Shown here: piece after piece, positions 58,990 to 64,000 of the stretch | How the letters are laid out: each line of letters opens with the position of its first letter | Numbering within the stretch: position 1 is the first letter of the stretch | NCBI GenBank assembly: GCA_944392985.1 | Contig: CALXYL010000001.1 | Span: forward strand, 124,001 to 188,000 | From: an uncultured Spirochaetaceae bacterium | Lineage (GTDB): Bacteria > Spirochaetota > Spirochaetia > Sphaerochaetales > Sphaerochaetaceae | Direction: 5' to 3' | DNA length: 64,000 nt | Notes under the pieces: model-generated | Seen by the model: only the letters and a program-made list of their open reading frames with translations | What the model was told of the DNA's origin: nothing | Database searches by the model: none | Program-made: the position numbers and the translations under genes

Positions 58990-59199
58990 TCACACATAGA
59001 TATGGCGAGCCATCTCCCTGTTGATTGCAACGCGGGAATCAAGGATGCCGACAATGACATCACCTCCCATCTCAGAAAGCACAGTGACTTCCTTCCCTTC
59101 CACAAAACCAAGGCCGGCAAGGAATCTCCTCACGCTGCCAGGACCGCTGATGCGGCGTATCATCCCTGATCTTCCTGTGCCGATCATAGATAAAGGCAT
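58990..59199 (-). CDS. FeoA-domain protein (second)
   Basis: The 69-residue protein has FeoA features (RRISGPGSVRRFLAGLGFVEGKEVTVLSEMGGDVIVGI...RVAINREMA). Two ATGs (59202 and 59199) follow AAGGAGG; the second has better spacing. It is the first gene of the operon. Two separate FeoA proteins before one FeoB occur in several Firmicutes and anaerobes. Confidence 0.85.
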   Translation of the reverse strand: MPLSMIGTGRSGMIRRISGPGSVRRFLAGLGFVEGKEVTVLSEMGGDVIVGILDSRVAINREMARHIYV

Positions 59200-59224
59200 C
59201 ATATTCCTCCTTGGTTGCTCTTTG

Positions 59225-59265
59225 CTAACCGTAGTTAGTTTATGCAAATCATAGTTAGCAGTCAA
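59225..59265 (-). promoter_or_regulatory. feo promoter with overlapping DtxR-type operator
   Basis: On the minus strand, TTGACT (59265-59260), a 17-base spacer and TAAACT (59242-59237) form the promoter. CTAAC-CGTA-GTTAG (59225-59238), an inverted repeat, covers the downstream edge of the -10 and +1, and another GTTAG half-site is at 59254-59258. CTAAC/GTTAG half-sites resemble those of DtxR and TroR-class repressors. Confidence 0.75.
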
Positions 59266-59331
59266 CAACTACAAGGCGTTGGAAATCATTTTCTTCTTCG
59301 TGAAGTGAAAATCAGCTATAATCATCGCAAT

Positions 59332-59712
59332 ATGAAGATGCATGAATCAGGAGAGATGTACCTTGAAACGATACTCCGCCTATCAGAAAGGCTCGATATC
59401 GTGCGATCGATAGACGTAGCGGAGGAAATGGGATTCTCAAAGCCCTCAATAAGCCGGGCAATGAAGATGCTCAGGGAAAATGGATACATCTCCATCGATC
59501 CCGGCACTGGAGCCATCAAGCTCCTTGCCAAAGGAAGGGAGATTGCGGAGATGATCTACGAACGGCATAGGGTGCTGTCAGAATGCCTTGAGGCCCTGGG
59601 GGTATCGCCAGCGACAGCGCAGGATGATGCCTGCCGCATCGAGCACGTCATCTCCCCTGAATCCTTTGAGGCGCTGAAAGCCCATATGATGGAATACGGC
59701 AGAAAGAAATAG
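59332..59712 (+). CDS. DtxR/MntR-family metal-dependent repressor
   Basis: The 126-residue protein has the winged helix-turn-helix (GEMYLETILRLSERLDIVRSIDVAEEMGFSKPSISRAMKMLRENGYI) and the metal-binding/dimerisation helices (HRVLSECLEALGVSPATAQDDACRIEHVIS). It lacks the SH3-like third domain, like MntR and TroR. It is divergent from the feo operon. A perfect TATAAT (59317-59322) lies nine bases before the ATG and no ribosome site is seen. The CTAAC/GTTAG sites lie about 95-110 bases upstream of its start. Confidence 0.92.
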   Translation: MKMHESGEMYLETILRLSERLDIVRSIDVAEEMGFSKPSISRAMKMLRENGYISIDPGTGAIKLLAKGREIAEMIYERHRVLSECLEALGVSPATAQDDACRIEHVISPESFEALKAHMMEYGRKK

Positions 59713-59733
59713 GGAGCCACCGAAGCAGCTCCC
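59701..59733 (-). terminator. Terminator of the second sigma gene
   Basis: On the minus strand GGGAGCTGC, loop TTCG, GTGGCTCCC (two G-U pairs) is followed by TATTTCTTTC. On the plus strand the G-U pairs become A-C mismatches, so it favours the minus direction. It overlaps the last codon of the repressor gene. Confidence 0.75.
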
Positions 59734-59739
59734 CTTTGC

Positions 59740-60612
59740 TCATACAGCCTGGCTGAATGCACCCAGATCACGTTCTTCGGAAACAGATCTAAGGCGTTCA
59801 AGCGCCCTTTTCTCTATCTGCCTGATCCTCTCCTTGGTAAGCCCATAGACCTCGCCGATCTCCTTGAGTGACATTGGCTTGGTTCCATCGAGACCGAAAC
59901 GCCTAGTGATGATGTCCTGCTCCTTGTCGGAAAGGGTGGAAAGAAGTCCTCTGACAGCAGTCCTCATGCTCTGCTCCATCACCTGATCCTCCGGCCCCTG
60001 CTCCTGAGCCTCGATGAAATCACCGAATGTCGAATCAGAGTCCTCACCCTTTTTCACCGGGCTGTCAAAGGAGACAACATCGCCGGAGATGGAAATCAGA
60101 TCGCTGATCAGCTTCGGATCAAGCCCTGTGGCTGCAGCGACATCCTCCACGGATGGATCCGTGGTCTCCTTCTCATGCATGATCGCCTTCTGGGCCTTCT
60201 GGATCTGCATCAGCTCGTTCGAACGGTTGAGAGGAAGGCGTACCGTTCTTCCCTTCTCTGAGATTGCCTTCATGATCGACTGCCTGATCCACCAGACAGC
60301 ATATGAAATGAAATGGTATCCCTTGTCGGGCTCGAACTTGTCGAGCGCAGTGATCAGCCCTATATTGCCTTCATTGATCAGATCGGAAAGGGCAAGCCCC
60401 TGTCCACGGAACTTCTTTGCAACCGATACAACGAAGCGGAGATTCGACCTGATGAGCTTCTCACGCGCGGCCTTGTCGCCGTTCTTTGCCTTCACTGCAA
60501 GCTCGTACTCCTCCTCATGGGAGATCAGCGGTATCCTGTTTATTTCCCTGAGATAGATCGAAAGCACCTCATTGTCGCTGTCCATCATCTCTGTCCTAAT
60601 CATATCTTCCAT
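59740..60612 (-). CDS. Alternative (group 2) sigma-70 factor, RpoS-like
   Basis: The 290-residue protein has regions 1.2 to 4 of the sigma-70 family but no region 1.1: DNEVLSIYLREINRIPLIS, then DLINEGNIGLITALDKFEPDKGYHFISYAVWWIRQ, and a C-terminal SLKEIGEVYGLTKERIRQIEKRALERLR. The size is that of RpoS or small SigA paralogues. ATG 60612 follows AAGGAGG; the in-frame ATG at 60633 lies at the predicted +1. A -24/-12 promoter precedes it. It should direct a stress or stage-specific regulon. Confidence 0.92.
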   Translation of the reverse strand: MEDMIRTEMMDSDNEVLSIYLREINRIPLISHEEEYELAVKAKNGDKAAREKLIRSNLRFVVSVAKKFRGQGLALSDLINEGNIGLITALDKFEPDKGYHFISYAVWWIRQSIMKAISEKGRTVRLPLNRSNELMQIQKAQKAIMHEKETTDPSVEDVAAATGLDPKLISDLISISGDVVSFDSPVKKGEDSDSTFGDFIEAQEQGPEDQVMEQSMRTAVRGLLSTLSDKEQDIITRRFGLDGTKPMSLKEIGEVYGLTKERIRQIEKRALERLRSVSEERDLGAFSQAV

Positions 60613-60642
60613 GGCGTCCTCCTTGGGTTGCATAAAGTGGTA

Positions 60643-60659
60643 TGCAGGAATCGTGCCAA
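60643..60659 (-). promoter_or_regulatory. Sigma-54 (-24/-12) promoter of the second sigma gene
   Basis: TTGGCACGATTCCTGCA on the minus strand fits YTGGCACG-N4-TTGCW with one mismatch, and GG and GC are exactly ten bases apart, as required. The predicted +1 is near 60632, leaving a 20-base leader that contains AAGGAGG. Confidence 0.75.
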
Positions 60660-60734
60660 AGATGCAGAATCAATTTATTTGATTACAACATAAGATATTA
60701 AATGAAGGTTTGCATGATTGCGAAAATCAAAAAC

Positions 60735-60789
60735 GGGTCATTATGACCCAACAAAGGAAAACTCACTGAAGAATGGGACATTATGACCC
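60735..60789. promoter_or_regulatory. Two palindromic sites upstream of the sigma-54 promoter
   Basis: GGGTCATTATGACCC (60735-60749) and GGGACATTATGACCC (60775-60789) are 40 bases apart, about four helical turns, and centred roughly 110 and 150 bases before the predicted +1. That is the usual range for activator enhancer sites. On the minus strand the nearer copy is followed by GTTTTTG, so it could also act as a small terminator for the upstream gene. Confidence 0.6.
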
Positions 60790-61167
60790 TCAGAGTGCAT
60801 CGGAGAGCGAGTCAGGGTCACTTTGCCACGGAAAGCAGATACGGACAGACTCCAAGAGATTCTCCCTGCCCTCCCCTGTCACGTTGAAAGGAGAGCTCTC
60901 AAGTGCTGAAAGGGAGCTGTCATATGCCTCCCTGATCAGATCGGAGATCATGTCACCCTCTGGCAGGGAAAGCGTGAAAACAGGCTTGGAGCGTAGGTAG
61001 CGTGCCATCTGGTAGCGGTAAAACGATACGAATTCAAGAGTAAGCTCGCAGCCGGTCAGGCGGGAGAGGAAGGCATCAACATACTCCTCATATGCTTCCT
61101 CATATGAAAGCAGCCTCGCCTTCCTGTTGCCATCCTTATAAAGAACCAAGCTCATCGTCCTGTCCAT
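60790..61167 (-). CDS. Hypothetical protein
   Basis: The 125-residue protein is mainly helical and aromatic-rich (SYEEAYEEYVDAFLSRLTGCELTLEFVSFYRYQMARYLRS). No family was recognised. ATG 61167 is chosen since AAGG lies seven bases upstream; 61155 is possible. It lies just upstream of, and on the same strand as, the second sigma gene. Its stop is immediately next to the farther palindrome. Confidence 0.6.
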   Translation of the reverse strand: MDRTMSLVLYKDGNRKARLLSYEEAYEEYVDAFLSRLTGCELTLEFVSFYRYQMARYLRSKPVFTLSLPEGDMISDLIREAYDSSLSALESSPFNVTGEGRENLLESVRICFPWQSDPDSLSDAL

Positions 61168-61248
61168 TTCCACACCTTACAGTCGGAAGATAATCAATAT
61201 GCGGAAAAAGTGAAGAGCTGATGGAGAAGTTTTGTGCATCAATCCCAC

Positions 61249-61277
61249 TTGCCGCGCTGTGAAAGCATTTGTATATT
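61249..61277 (+). promoter_or_regulatory. Promoter of groES
   Basis: TTGCCG (61249-61254), a 17-base spacer and TATATT (61272-61277). No CIRCE element (TTAGCACTC inverted repeat) is present between this and the gene. Confidence 0.6.
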
Positions 61278-61321
61278 CCATAGTAGCCGCTAAGGCTTAT
61301 CAAATTACATGAGGTGATACC

Positions 61322-61585
61322 ATGAAGATCATTCCGCTTGGTGACAGGGTTCTTGTAAAGGCAAAGGAAGTCGAGGAGAAGACAGCCTCCGGCATCTTCA
61401 TCCCGCAGACTGCTCAGGAGAAGACGCAGATCGCTACAGTCGTTGCAGTAGGCGATGACGAGACGATCAAGGTCAAGGCCGGACAGGAGATCCTGCATGA
61501 CAAGTATGCTGGCACAGCGATAAAGGACAACGGAGAGGATTATCTCATCCTCAACTATGCGGACATCCTCGCAGTCATTGAGTAA
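61322..61585 (+). CDS. groES: Co-chaperonin GroES
   Basis: The 87-residue protein starts MKIIPLGDRVLVKAKEVEEKTASGIFIP and has the GDD and KVKAGQEILHDKYAGTAIK features of Hsp10. It caps GroEL. groEL is not adjacent; a split arrangement is known in Treponema. GAGGTGA precedes the ATG. Confidence 0.96.
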   Translation: MKIIPLGDRVLVKAKEVEEKTASGIFIPQTAQEKTQIATVVAVGDDETIKVKAGQEILHDKYAGTAIKDNGEDYLILNYADILAVIE

Positions 61586-61631: not shown

Positions 61632-63701
61632 TCAGTAGAGGAAGCGCTCTATCTTATCCCCCAGATTCGCAAGCATGGCATCCTCCGGGATATAGCAATC
61701 GGGAAGCGATGAGATCATCATCCGGCCATAGGCCTTGCGCAGTATCCTGCCATCAAGGATCAGCACAGCCCCGCGGTCGCTTTCAGAGCGTATCAGCCGT
61801 CCGATGCCCTGCTTCAGGCGGAGCGTTGCCTCCGGGACCATCATCTCCATGAAGGAGGAGCCCCCATGCTTGTCAATCGCTTCGGAGCGGGCTCTGACGA
61901 TAGGTGTCGTAGGTGCGGTGAACGGCAGCTTCACTATGATCACAAGGCGCAGCGTGTCCCCAGGAGCATCAACGCCTTCCCAGAATGATGAGACTGCGAA
62001 TAGCGAGCTGTCCTTCCGCTTCCTGAAATCAGAGAGGAGACGGCCCCTTGGTATCCTGTCATCCTGGATCATCAGGTCATCAATGGAAGATGCGAGCGAG
62101 GCATAGACTGCCTTCATCATCATTTTCGACGTGAAAAGCACAAGCGCTCCCCCTCCCGATGCCTCTATCGCAGTCTTGATGCAGTGCGTGACATAGCCGG
62201 TATATGATTCAGTGCTCCCGGCGGAAAAGAGCACACCATCCTGCGGAAGCAGAAGCATCAGATTGCGCCTGAAATCAAACGGGGAAGCGAAGATTCCTGA
62301 AAGCAGCCTCTCCTTCTCCTCAGCCAGTCCCGAACGTGAAGCAAAGTAATCGAAGCTGCCATTGACGCTAAGAGTCGCAGAGGAGAAGATCATCGAATCA
62401 AGATGGCTGACAAGCAGGCGTGAAAGAAGCGGGCCTGTATGCATTGGAGCAAGGTGTATCTCCGCTTTTCCATCGATCCCTTCGACAGCGTATGGGATCT
62501 CATCATCCCATCGGGAGAACCGTATCCAGTCACGAAGCGTATCAGCAAGATGACAGAGCGTAGCCCCATATCTTCCAATAAGGTCAACATAGACCTCATT
62601 CGACTCAGACGGGTGGTCGCTGTATGCACTCATCACAAAGCTGCCGATCCTCTCCATCTCCACAGCGATCCCTTCCCCCTCGCGGAGCCGGTCCCCATAG
62701 GCATCATAGAACTGCGGAGTGAAAAGAAGCTCCTTTTCCTTGAAACGTGAAAGTATCGAGGAAATGATGGAATCATACTGCCCAAGCATCGTGCGAAGGT
62801 GCGCGATATCTTCCTTCGTGCGTTTCCCGCTGCCCCTTTCCTTCTCCTCCGTGGAAAGGAAATCAAGGATCGAAGCAGACCCGAATCGCTTCTCACGGCG
62901 TGTCAGATAATCCAGCACGCGCTCGACGCGCCATGATGAGTAGATACGGGAAAGCACATCAGTCGCCTCATTCTCTATATGATGGGCCTCATCCATGACC
63001 GCGCACTGGTAGCTGGGAAGGATCACATCCTCAGAGAAATCGATCTCCGCCTCCCCTCGGTTCTTCGCATCAAGAAGGAGCAGATGATGGTTCGTCACAA
63101 CAAGCGAAGCGCGCTGTGCTTTCTTCCTCGCCCCATAATAGAAGCAATCCTGCTGGAAGGGACAGCGGTATCCTAGGCAGTCCTTGTCGTCAGAAGCGAA
63201 ATCAAGGAACATCCGTACCGGGACGGAACGCGGAAGATCCTGCAGTACGCCGCTATCGGTTTCAGTGACCCACTTCTCGAACTCCCGGTCAGTTTCCGTC
63301 CTGGTTTCATTAAGAAGGCTCTTCTCATTGCGCGCATCATTGAAGCGCCGTACGCAGAGATAGTTAGAACGGCCGAACAGGATCGCCGTCTCTATATCAA
63401 GGCCAAGGGTCTCCTTCACGACGGGGATATCCTTGTCGTAGAGCTGCTTCTCAAGCGTGATCGTGCTTGTCGCTATGACAAAGCGCCTTGATCGGTCCTT
63501 CCCAATGCTCAGCATCGCCGGAACAAGGTATGCGAAACTCTTTCCCGTCCCGGTTCCAGCCTCTATGATCGCGTGGCATCCGCTGAGGAACGCCTTTGAG
63601 ACGAGTTCCGCCATCTCAAGCTGGCTTTCACGGAACGTGTAAGAGGAAAGCGCCTTCTCAAGGGCACCGCCAGGGGAGAATACATCCTCTGTATCCATCA
63701 C
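61632..63701 (-). CDS. dinG: DinG/XPD-family ATP-dependent DNA helicase
   Basis: The 689-residue superfamily 2 helicase has FRESQLEMAELV (Q-like region), Walker A EAGTGTGKSFAYL near residue 49, a cysteine cluster CLGYRCPFQQDCFYYGARKKA near residue 174 for a probable 4Fe-4S cluster, the VMDEAHHIENEA box near residue 234, and a C-terminal GRLIRSESDRGAVLILDGR. It unwinds damaged or blocked DNA. The helicase stop is 46 bases from the groES stop. The start overlaps the end of the sigma-54 activator gene by four bases. Confidence 0.92.
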   Translation of the reverse strand: MMDTEDVFSPGGALEKALSSYTFRESQLEMAELVSKAFLSGCHAIIEAGTGTGKSFAYLVPAMLSIGKDRSRRFVIATSTITLEKQLYDKDIPVVKETLGLDIETAILFGRSNYLCVRRFNDARNEKSLLNETRTETDREFEKWVTETDSGVLQDLPRSVPVRMFLDFASDDKDCLGYRCPFQQDCFYYGARKKAQRASLVVTNHHLLLLDAKNRGEAEIDFSEDVILPSYQCAVMDEAHHIENEATDVLSRIYSSWRVERVLDYLTRREKRFGSASILDFLSTEEKERGSGKRTKEDIAHLRTMLGQYDSIISSILSRFKEKELLFTPQFYDAYGDRLREGEGIAVEMERIGSFVMSAYSDHPSESNEVYVDLIGRYGATLCHLADTLRDWIRFSRWDDEIPYAVEGIDGKAEIHLAPMHTGPLLSRLLVSHLDSMIFSSATLSVNGSFDYFASRSGLAEEKERLLSGIFASPFDFRRNLMLLLPQDGVLFSAGSTESYTGYVTHCIKTAIEASGGGALVLFTSKMMMKAVYASLASSIDDLMIQDDRIPRGRLLSDFRKRKDSSLFAVSSFWEGVDAPGDTLRLVIIVKLPFTAPTTPIVRARSEAIDKHGGSSFMEMMVPEATLRLKQGIGRLIRSESDRGAVLILDGRILRKAYGRMMISSLPDCYIPEDAMLANLGDKIERFLY

Positions 63702-64000
63702 GCCTCGCCTTCCTCGATCCTCAGCTCCTGTATGCGGCGCGTGATTGTCTTGCGTCCGATGCCAAGAAGCTCTGCAGCCTTCGTCTTGTTTCCCTTTGCA
63801 AAGGAGATCGTCTCAAGTATCAGCCTGCGCTCAGCCTCATCCATCGTAATCGGGAGCTCAAGAGTAAGGCTTGAACCCCCTCCTGCATTCCTCACCTGCT
63901 CAGGAAGGTCGTCCTTGTCGATATACTTCCCCTTTGCAAGCACCACAGCTGATTCAATCGCATTCTGAAGCTCCCTGATGTTGCCCGGCCAGGAATAGGA
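63698..64000 (-). CDS. Sigma-54-dependent transcriptional activator, C-terminal end (partial)
   Basis: The gene runs off the right edge; about 100 C-terminal residues are visible. They contain the AAA+ hallmark SWPGNIRELQNAIESAVVLAKG and a Fis-type helix-turn-helix (EAERRLILETISFAKGNKTKAAELLGIGRKTITRRIQELR). This identifies an NtrC-type activator for RpoN polymerase. The N-terminal sensor or receiver is outside the window. It may be the activator for the sigma-54 promoter at 60.65 kb. Confidence 0.93.
   Translation of the reverse strand, partial: SYSWPGNIRELQNAIESAVVLAKGKYIDKDDLPEQVRNAGGGSSLTLELPITMDEAERRLILETISFAKGNKTKAAELLGIGRKTITRRIQELRIEEGEA

Follow-up and report, generated by a model that had tools for sequence, protein, structure and literature searches.

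A sigma-54 promoter with phased candidate enhancers precedes an RpoS-like sigma factor gene in the Spirochaetia

The window analysed here is a 64-kb stretch (64,000 nucleotides) of contig CALXYL010000001.1 from an uncultured member of the Spirochaetaceae (assembly GCA_944392985.1). Near its end, on the minus strand at 59740-60612, lies the gene for a sigma-70-family factor of 290 aa, counted from ATG 60612, which Pfam and NCBIfam models identify as a group-2 factor and in which Pfam recognizes regions 1.2, 2, 3 and 4. The best curated match is the proteobacterial RpoS family TIGR02394, at 276.1 bits against a curated cut-off of 378.7; the description "RpoS-like" given in the initial annotation can be kept for a group-2 protein of this kind, but the factor falls outside the curated RpoS family itself. 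The closest named relatives are spirochaetes assembled from gut metagenomes, among them Candidatus Ornithospirochaeta species; the Sphaerochaetaceae lie further out. Upstream of the sigma gene, and also on the minus strand, is a small conserved ORF of 127 aa (60790-61173), which is retained in part of the class and matched no family in Pfam or NCBIfam. It is followed by groES (Cpn10, Pfam PF00166; 61322-61585, plus strand) and by a DinG-like helicase gene (61632-63701, minus strand; named by reading of the sequence), both of which are conserved neighbours of the sigma gene by synteny. The window closes within the gene of an NtrC-type response regulator, whose C-terminus, comprising the AAA lid and a Fis-type HTH, occupies 63698-64000 on the minus strand. 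On the other side and convergent with the sigma gene, 58990-59712 encodes a FeoA-like protein divergent from a DtxR/MntR-type regulator beside feoB, a probable iron or manganese regulon.

The sigma gene is preceded by a sigma-54 (-24/-12) promoter, TTGGCACGATTCCTGCA, at 60659-60643 on the minus strand, about 30 bp from the gene, and the exact -24/-12 spacing that had been claimed for this 17-mer was confirmed. No other site in the window matches the full set of 12 scored sigma-54 positions. The motif is short: with up to two mismatches allowed, the window contains 55 matches where shuffled sequence gives 52, which is no enrichment, and the exact motif occurs five times in the 1.96-Mb genome, so that the bare motif is at about chance level and sequence alone is weak evidence for a promoter. 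The call is settled by position and conservation. From the -12 GC, transcription is predicted to start at about 60632, which would leave a leader of 20 nt (60632-60613) before ATG 60612; the leader and ribosome site proposed earlier are borne out as a prediction, with a Shine-Dalgarno sequence AAGGAGG at 60624-60618. The longer frame reported by the ORF caller begins at ATG 60633; that codon falls where the transcript itself is predicted to start, and in relatives the gene opens at the equivalent of ATG 60612. A search of the leader for a special fold found none, and no Rfam family matched.

Upstream regions of the sigma gene were compared across the class, using 92 sequences, 32 from the same genus and 60 from other genera and families, with one gene counted twice. 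A sigma-54 site scoring at least 10 of 12 lies within 200 bp of the gene in 89 of the 92, against 3.8% in shuffled upstream sequence, a control that leaves the kinship among the 32 same-genus sequences in place; outside the genus, 57 of 60 pass the same cut-off. A clear promoter is missing at three sigma genes of the set. An independent set of named organisms gave the site in 47 of the 49 spirochaetes that had upstream DNA. Outside the spirochaetes it preceded only 2 of the 29 homologues compared, which came from Ignavibacteria, Zixibacteria, Latescibacterota, Gemmatimonadetes and other groups. The promoter is therefore a trait of the spirochaete lineage within this sigma family, not of the family as a whole. 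The comparison of relatives that the initial annotation proposed thus shows a TGGCA-N8-TGCW-type site kept before the orthologue in almost all the Spirochaetia compared. In one 1.14-Mb single-contig genome of Treponema type (G110, locus L151) the sigma frame ends after region 2 and the promoter still scores 12/12, which may mark a relay in decay.

Further upstream lie three candidate enhancer palindromes of the form GnGTCAnnnTGACnC, starting at 60735, 60775 and 60815 and thus spaced by exactly 40 bp, which the initial annotation had overlooked. Palindrome 1, GGGTCATTATGACCC (60735-60749), is conserved class-wide and has its centre 84 bp upstream of the -24 element; palindrome 2, GGGACATTATGACCC (60775-60789), and palindrome 3, GGGTCACTTTGCCAC (60815-60829), each follow 40 bp upstream of the last. 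These three account for all but one of the four strong palindrome matches in the window. Among 87 upstream regions of the class, 79 carry a palindrome scoring at least 8 of 10, compared with 4% in shuffles; 51 of the 87 have at least two copies, and successive copies are exactly 40 bp apart in 78 of 86 cases. The palindromes are weak in several Treponema-type genomes. Elsewhere in the genome, most of the palindromes inspected sit within genes, and none was found near the other four exact sigma-54 motifs. The third site lies inside the 3' coding end of the 127-aa ORF, where a double constraint on DNA and protein is possible.

The genome contains the components that such a promoter would need. 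A search for rpoN, which had been suggested as a check, found it intact: the gene, on contig 2, encodes the three domains of a sigma-54 factor (AID, core-binding and DNA-binding), and it is present in all 60 relatives searched. The regulator fragment noted 3 kb from the sigma gene proved real, and the full-length gene continues just past the window end, encoding a receiver, an AAA+ domain with GAFTGA and a Fis-type HTH; it is preceded by genes for a HisKA/HATPase kinase, holB and cvpA. Two other proteins in the genome match the sigma-54 activation domain strongly, which makes three in all: a regulator on contig 19 that has GAFTGA and forms part of a kinase-regulator pair, and a protein on contig 3 without GAFTGA. 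The Rrp2-type regulator beside the sigma gene occurs in 147 of 148 class genomes, with GAFTGA and a conserved recognition helix, and the order cvpA-holB-kinase-regulator-dinG-groES-sigma recurs, with some insertions, in many of the families compared. Upstream of groES (61249-61277 in the window; loci L140-L186), many families share a conserved TTGACC-N15/17-CGTATATT promoter, which is degenerate in the window's own genus and has a -10 element unlike TATAAT; judged by its sequence, it is a candidate target of the RpoS-like sigma factor or of RpoD.

A search of the genome for the palindrome led to a second target. On contig 14, GGGTCATTTTGACCC is followed by a sigma-54 site and then by two Hsp20 genes, and a second hsp20 locus on contig 17 carries a weaker version of the same module. 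In relatives, both elements occur in 23 of 29 hsp20 upstream regions and in none of the shuffles. The composite pattern of palindrome and promoter was then used in strict whole-genome scans of 148 and 80 genomes, blind to gene identity. The 38 loci that these yielded comprised 22 in front of the sigma gene, 14 at Hsp20 genes, one at a PspA-like gene and one unassigned. The reversed composite pattern, serving as control, matched once in the class scan and not at all in the scan of relatives. The PspA-like gene lies behind the module in a genome of the same family (G060, locus L238) and hints at an envelope-stress branch.

The RpoN-RpoS cascade of Borrelia, called unique by a 2025 review (PMC12472547), is the nearest known system. 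There, Rrp2 is the sole protein of NtrC type and activates rpoS (PMC2940757), and RpoS production also requires BosR (PMC11109971). The present system shares with the Hk2-Rrp2-RpoN-RpoS cascade of Borrelia burgdorferi a sigma-54 promoter before a group-2 sigma gene, an NtrC-type regulator with GAFTGA adjoining its kinase, and the order holB-kinase-regulator. The two regulators are about 50% identical and each Borrelia genome has one strong match, so that ours is an apparent orthologue of Rrp2 by sequence and gene order. The recognition helix of the Borrelia protein, IGRKTLHNK, is close to the IGRKTLHRK of enhancer-bearing relatives. In B. turicatae, B. hermsii and B. anserina the sigma gene lies within about 8 kb of the regulator on the same strand, although upstream of it, whereas it is downstream in the window organism. 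The likeness to the Borrelia cascade that the initial annotation had drawn is well founded, with rpoN intact, the promoter conserved and the activator syntenic with Borrelia Rrp2, and a relay outside Borrelia is supported; it is, however, class-wide rather than peculiar to one genome.

The parallel holds for the type of relay but not for its enhancer. The rpoS promoters of four Borrelia genomes keep the sigma-54 site and lack the tandem palindromes, of which the window organism has three, and across 11 Borreliaceae genomes the core GTCAnnnTGAC shows no excess over its reversed control. Borrelia Rrp2 has been reported as enhancer-independent, to go by the title of Blevins 2009 as cited in PMC2940757; the three phased palindromes set the present promoter apart in this respect. 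Borrelia RpoS is also very divergent and sits on a very long branch: in a sigma tree with RpoD it stands apart from the other spirochaete sigmas, and in a tree lacking RpoD it is placed on the spirochaete side relative to non-spirochaete homologues. In one B. turicatae genome (G053, contig 1, about 472400-473570) rpoN is split into several frames while the rpoS promoter and rrp2 are retained; the absence of a sigma-54 orthologue in that strain was noted already (PMC3162934).

We consider it very probable that the sigma gene is controlled by a sigma-54 promoter with phased enhancers and an Rrp2-type activator, with Hsp20 as a co-target. A chance match to a short motif would agree with the five exact matches genome-wide and the lack of excess in the window, but it is refuted by the class-wide positional conservation, and its probability is negligible. 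It is highly improbable that the sigma gene owes most of its transcription to read-through from the upstream ORF or to a sigma-70 promoter, and that the sigma-54 site plays a small part or is a relic. The ORF does share the strand of the sigma gene and stops 178 bp short of ATG 60612, yet no minus-strand sigma-70-like promoter was found in 59600-61500, and the sigma-54 site persists amid diverging surroundings, as vestigial sites do not.

The palindromes could instead be terminators of the upstream ORF or sites of an unrelated repressor, with the promoter activated from solution in the manner reported for Borrelia Rrp2. Palindrome 1 of the window does score as terminator-like, a run of T follows 18 of 31 proximal copies in the genus, and this copy could double as a terminator. 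Such a run is found, however, at none of 32 distal copies in the genus and at 2 of 20 hsp20 copies, so that a terminator role was mostly rejected; one palindrome lies within coding sequence, and both the exact 40-bp phasing and the linkage to sigma-54 sites at unrelated genes speak against this reading, which we regard as very unlikely. It is also unlikely, to a lesser degree, that the promoter is real and that a different NtrC-type regulator, such as that of the contig-19 pair, occupies its enhancer, with the Rrp2-type gene as a bystander. Two regulators with GAFTGA are present in this genome and several in many members of the class, but only the Rrp2-type protein is both near-universal and syntenic with the sigma gene. 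Some palindrome-bearing genomes (family f11) show this regulator alone at the cut-off used, and its Borrelia counterpart, the only protein of its kind there, is the rpoS activator.

Under the preferred reading, activation by sigma-54 and an Rrp2-type protein, RNA polymerase with sigma-54 would switch on the sigma gene from the -24/-12 promoter, and opening of the promoter would need an activator seated on the three palindromes and looping to it. Since the exact 40-bp spacing corresponds to about four helical turns, the palindromes would all lie on one face of the DNA. The likeliest activator is the Rrp2-type regulator, whose gene lies 3 kb from that of the sigma factor and which the adjacent kinase would phosphorylate. 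The same enhancer-promoter module would drive the Hsp20 genes, so that small chaperones are made directly, and the alternative sigma factor, once made, would switch on a second set of genes. Because the module also precedes Hsp20 genes, the kinase probably responds to protein or envelope damage, and proteostasis is the likely theme of the sigma factor.

Classical NtrC-type systems (NtrC, NorR and ZraR) likewise place palindromes about 80-170 bp ahead of a -24/-12 promoter, and the GT-N7-AC core of the present palindrome resembles the NorR site. The system of the window differs from them in driving another sigma factor and small heat-shock proteins, and it shares neither its site sequence nor its strict 40-bp phasing with them. 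Within the class, the pair likened to it by name is Hpk2-Rrp2 of Treponema denticola (TDE1970-TDE1969); an oxygen-sensing PAS domain is part of that kinase, and its partner Rrp2 is a predicted sigma-54 activator whose targets are unstudied (PMC12070737). A class-wide relay predicts an RpoS-like sigma gene and hsp20 as targets of Rrp2 in that organism. Our literature search, with most subscription journals outside its coverage, returned no report of the relay outside Borrelia or of sigma-54-driven hsp20 in spirochaetes. Relays of this type are known from Borrelia, and the literature searched described none that spans the class and combines a tandem enhancer with an Hsp20 branch.

On balance we favour the view that this is an ancestral stress circuit of the Spirochaetia, probably in origin a response to damaged protein, in which an Rrp2-type regulator on phased tandem enhancers would switch on a second sigma factor together with small heat-shock proteins. 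The virulence cascade of Borrelia would then be a derived, pared-down form, having lost the enhancers of rpoS and kept the recognition helix of Rrp2. Should the relay be class-wide, the task it first served, its signal and its enhancer could be studied in harmless or tractable relatives, and the enhancer-independent Rrp2 of Borrelia, the essentiality of that protein and the dependence on BosR become questions of what was lost.
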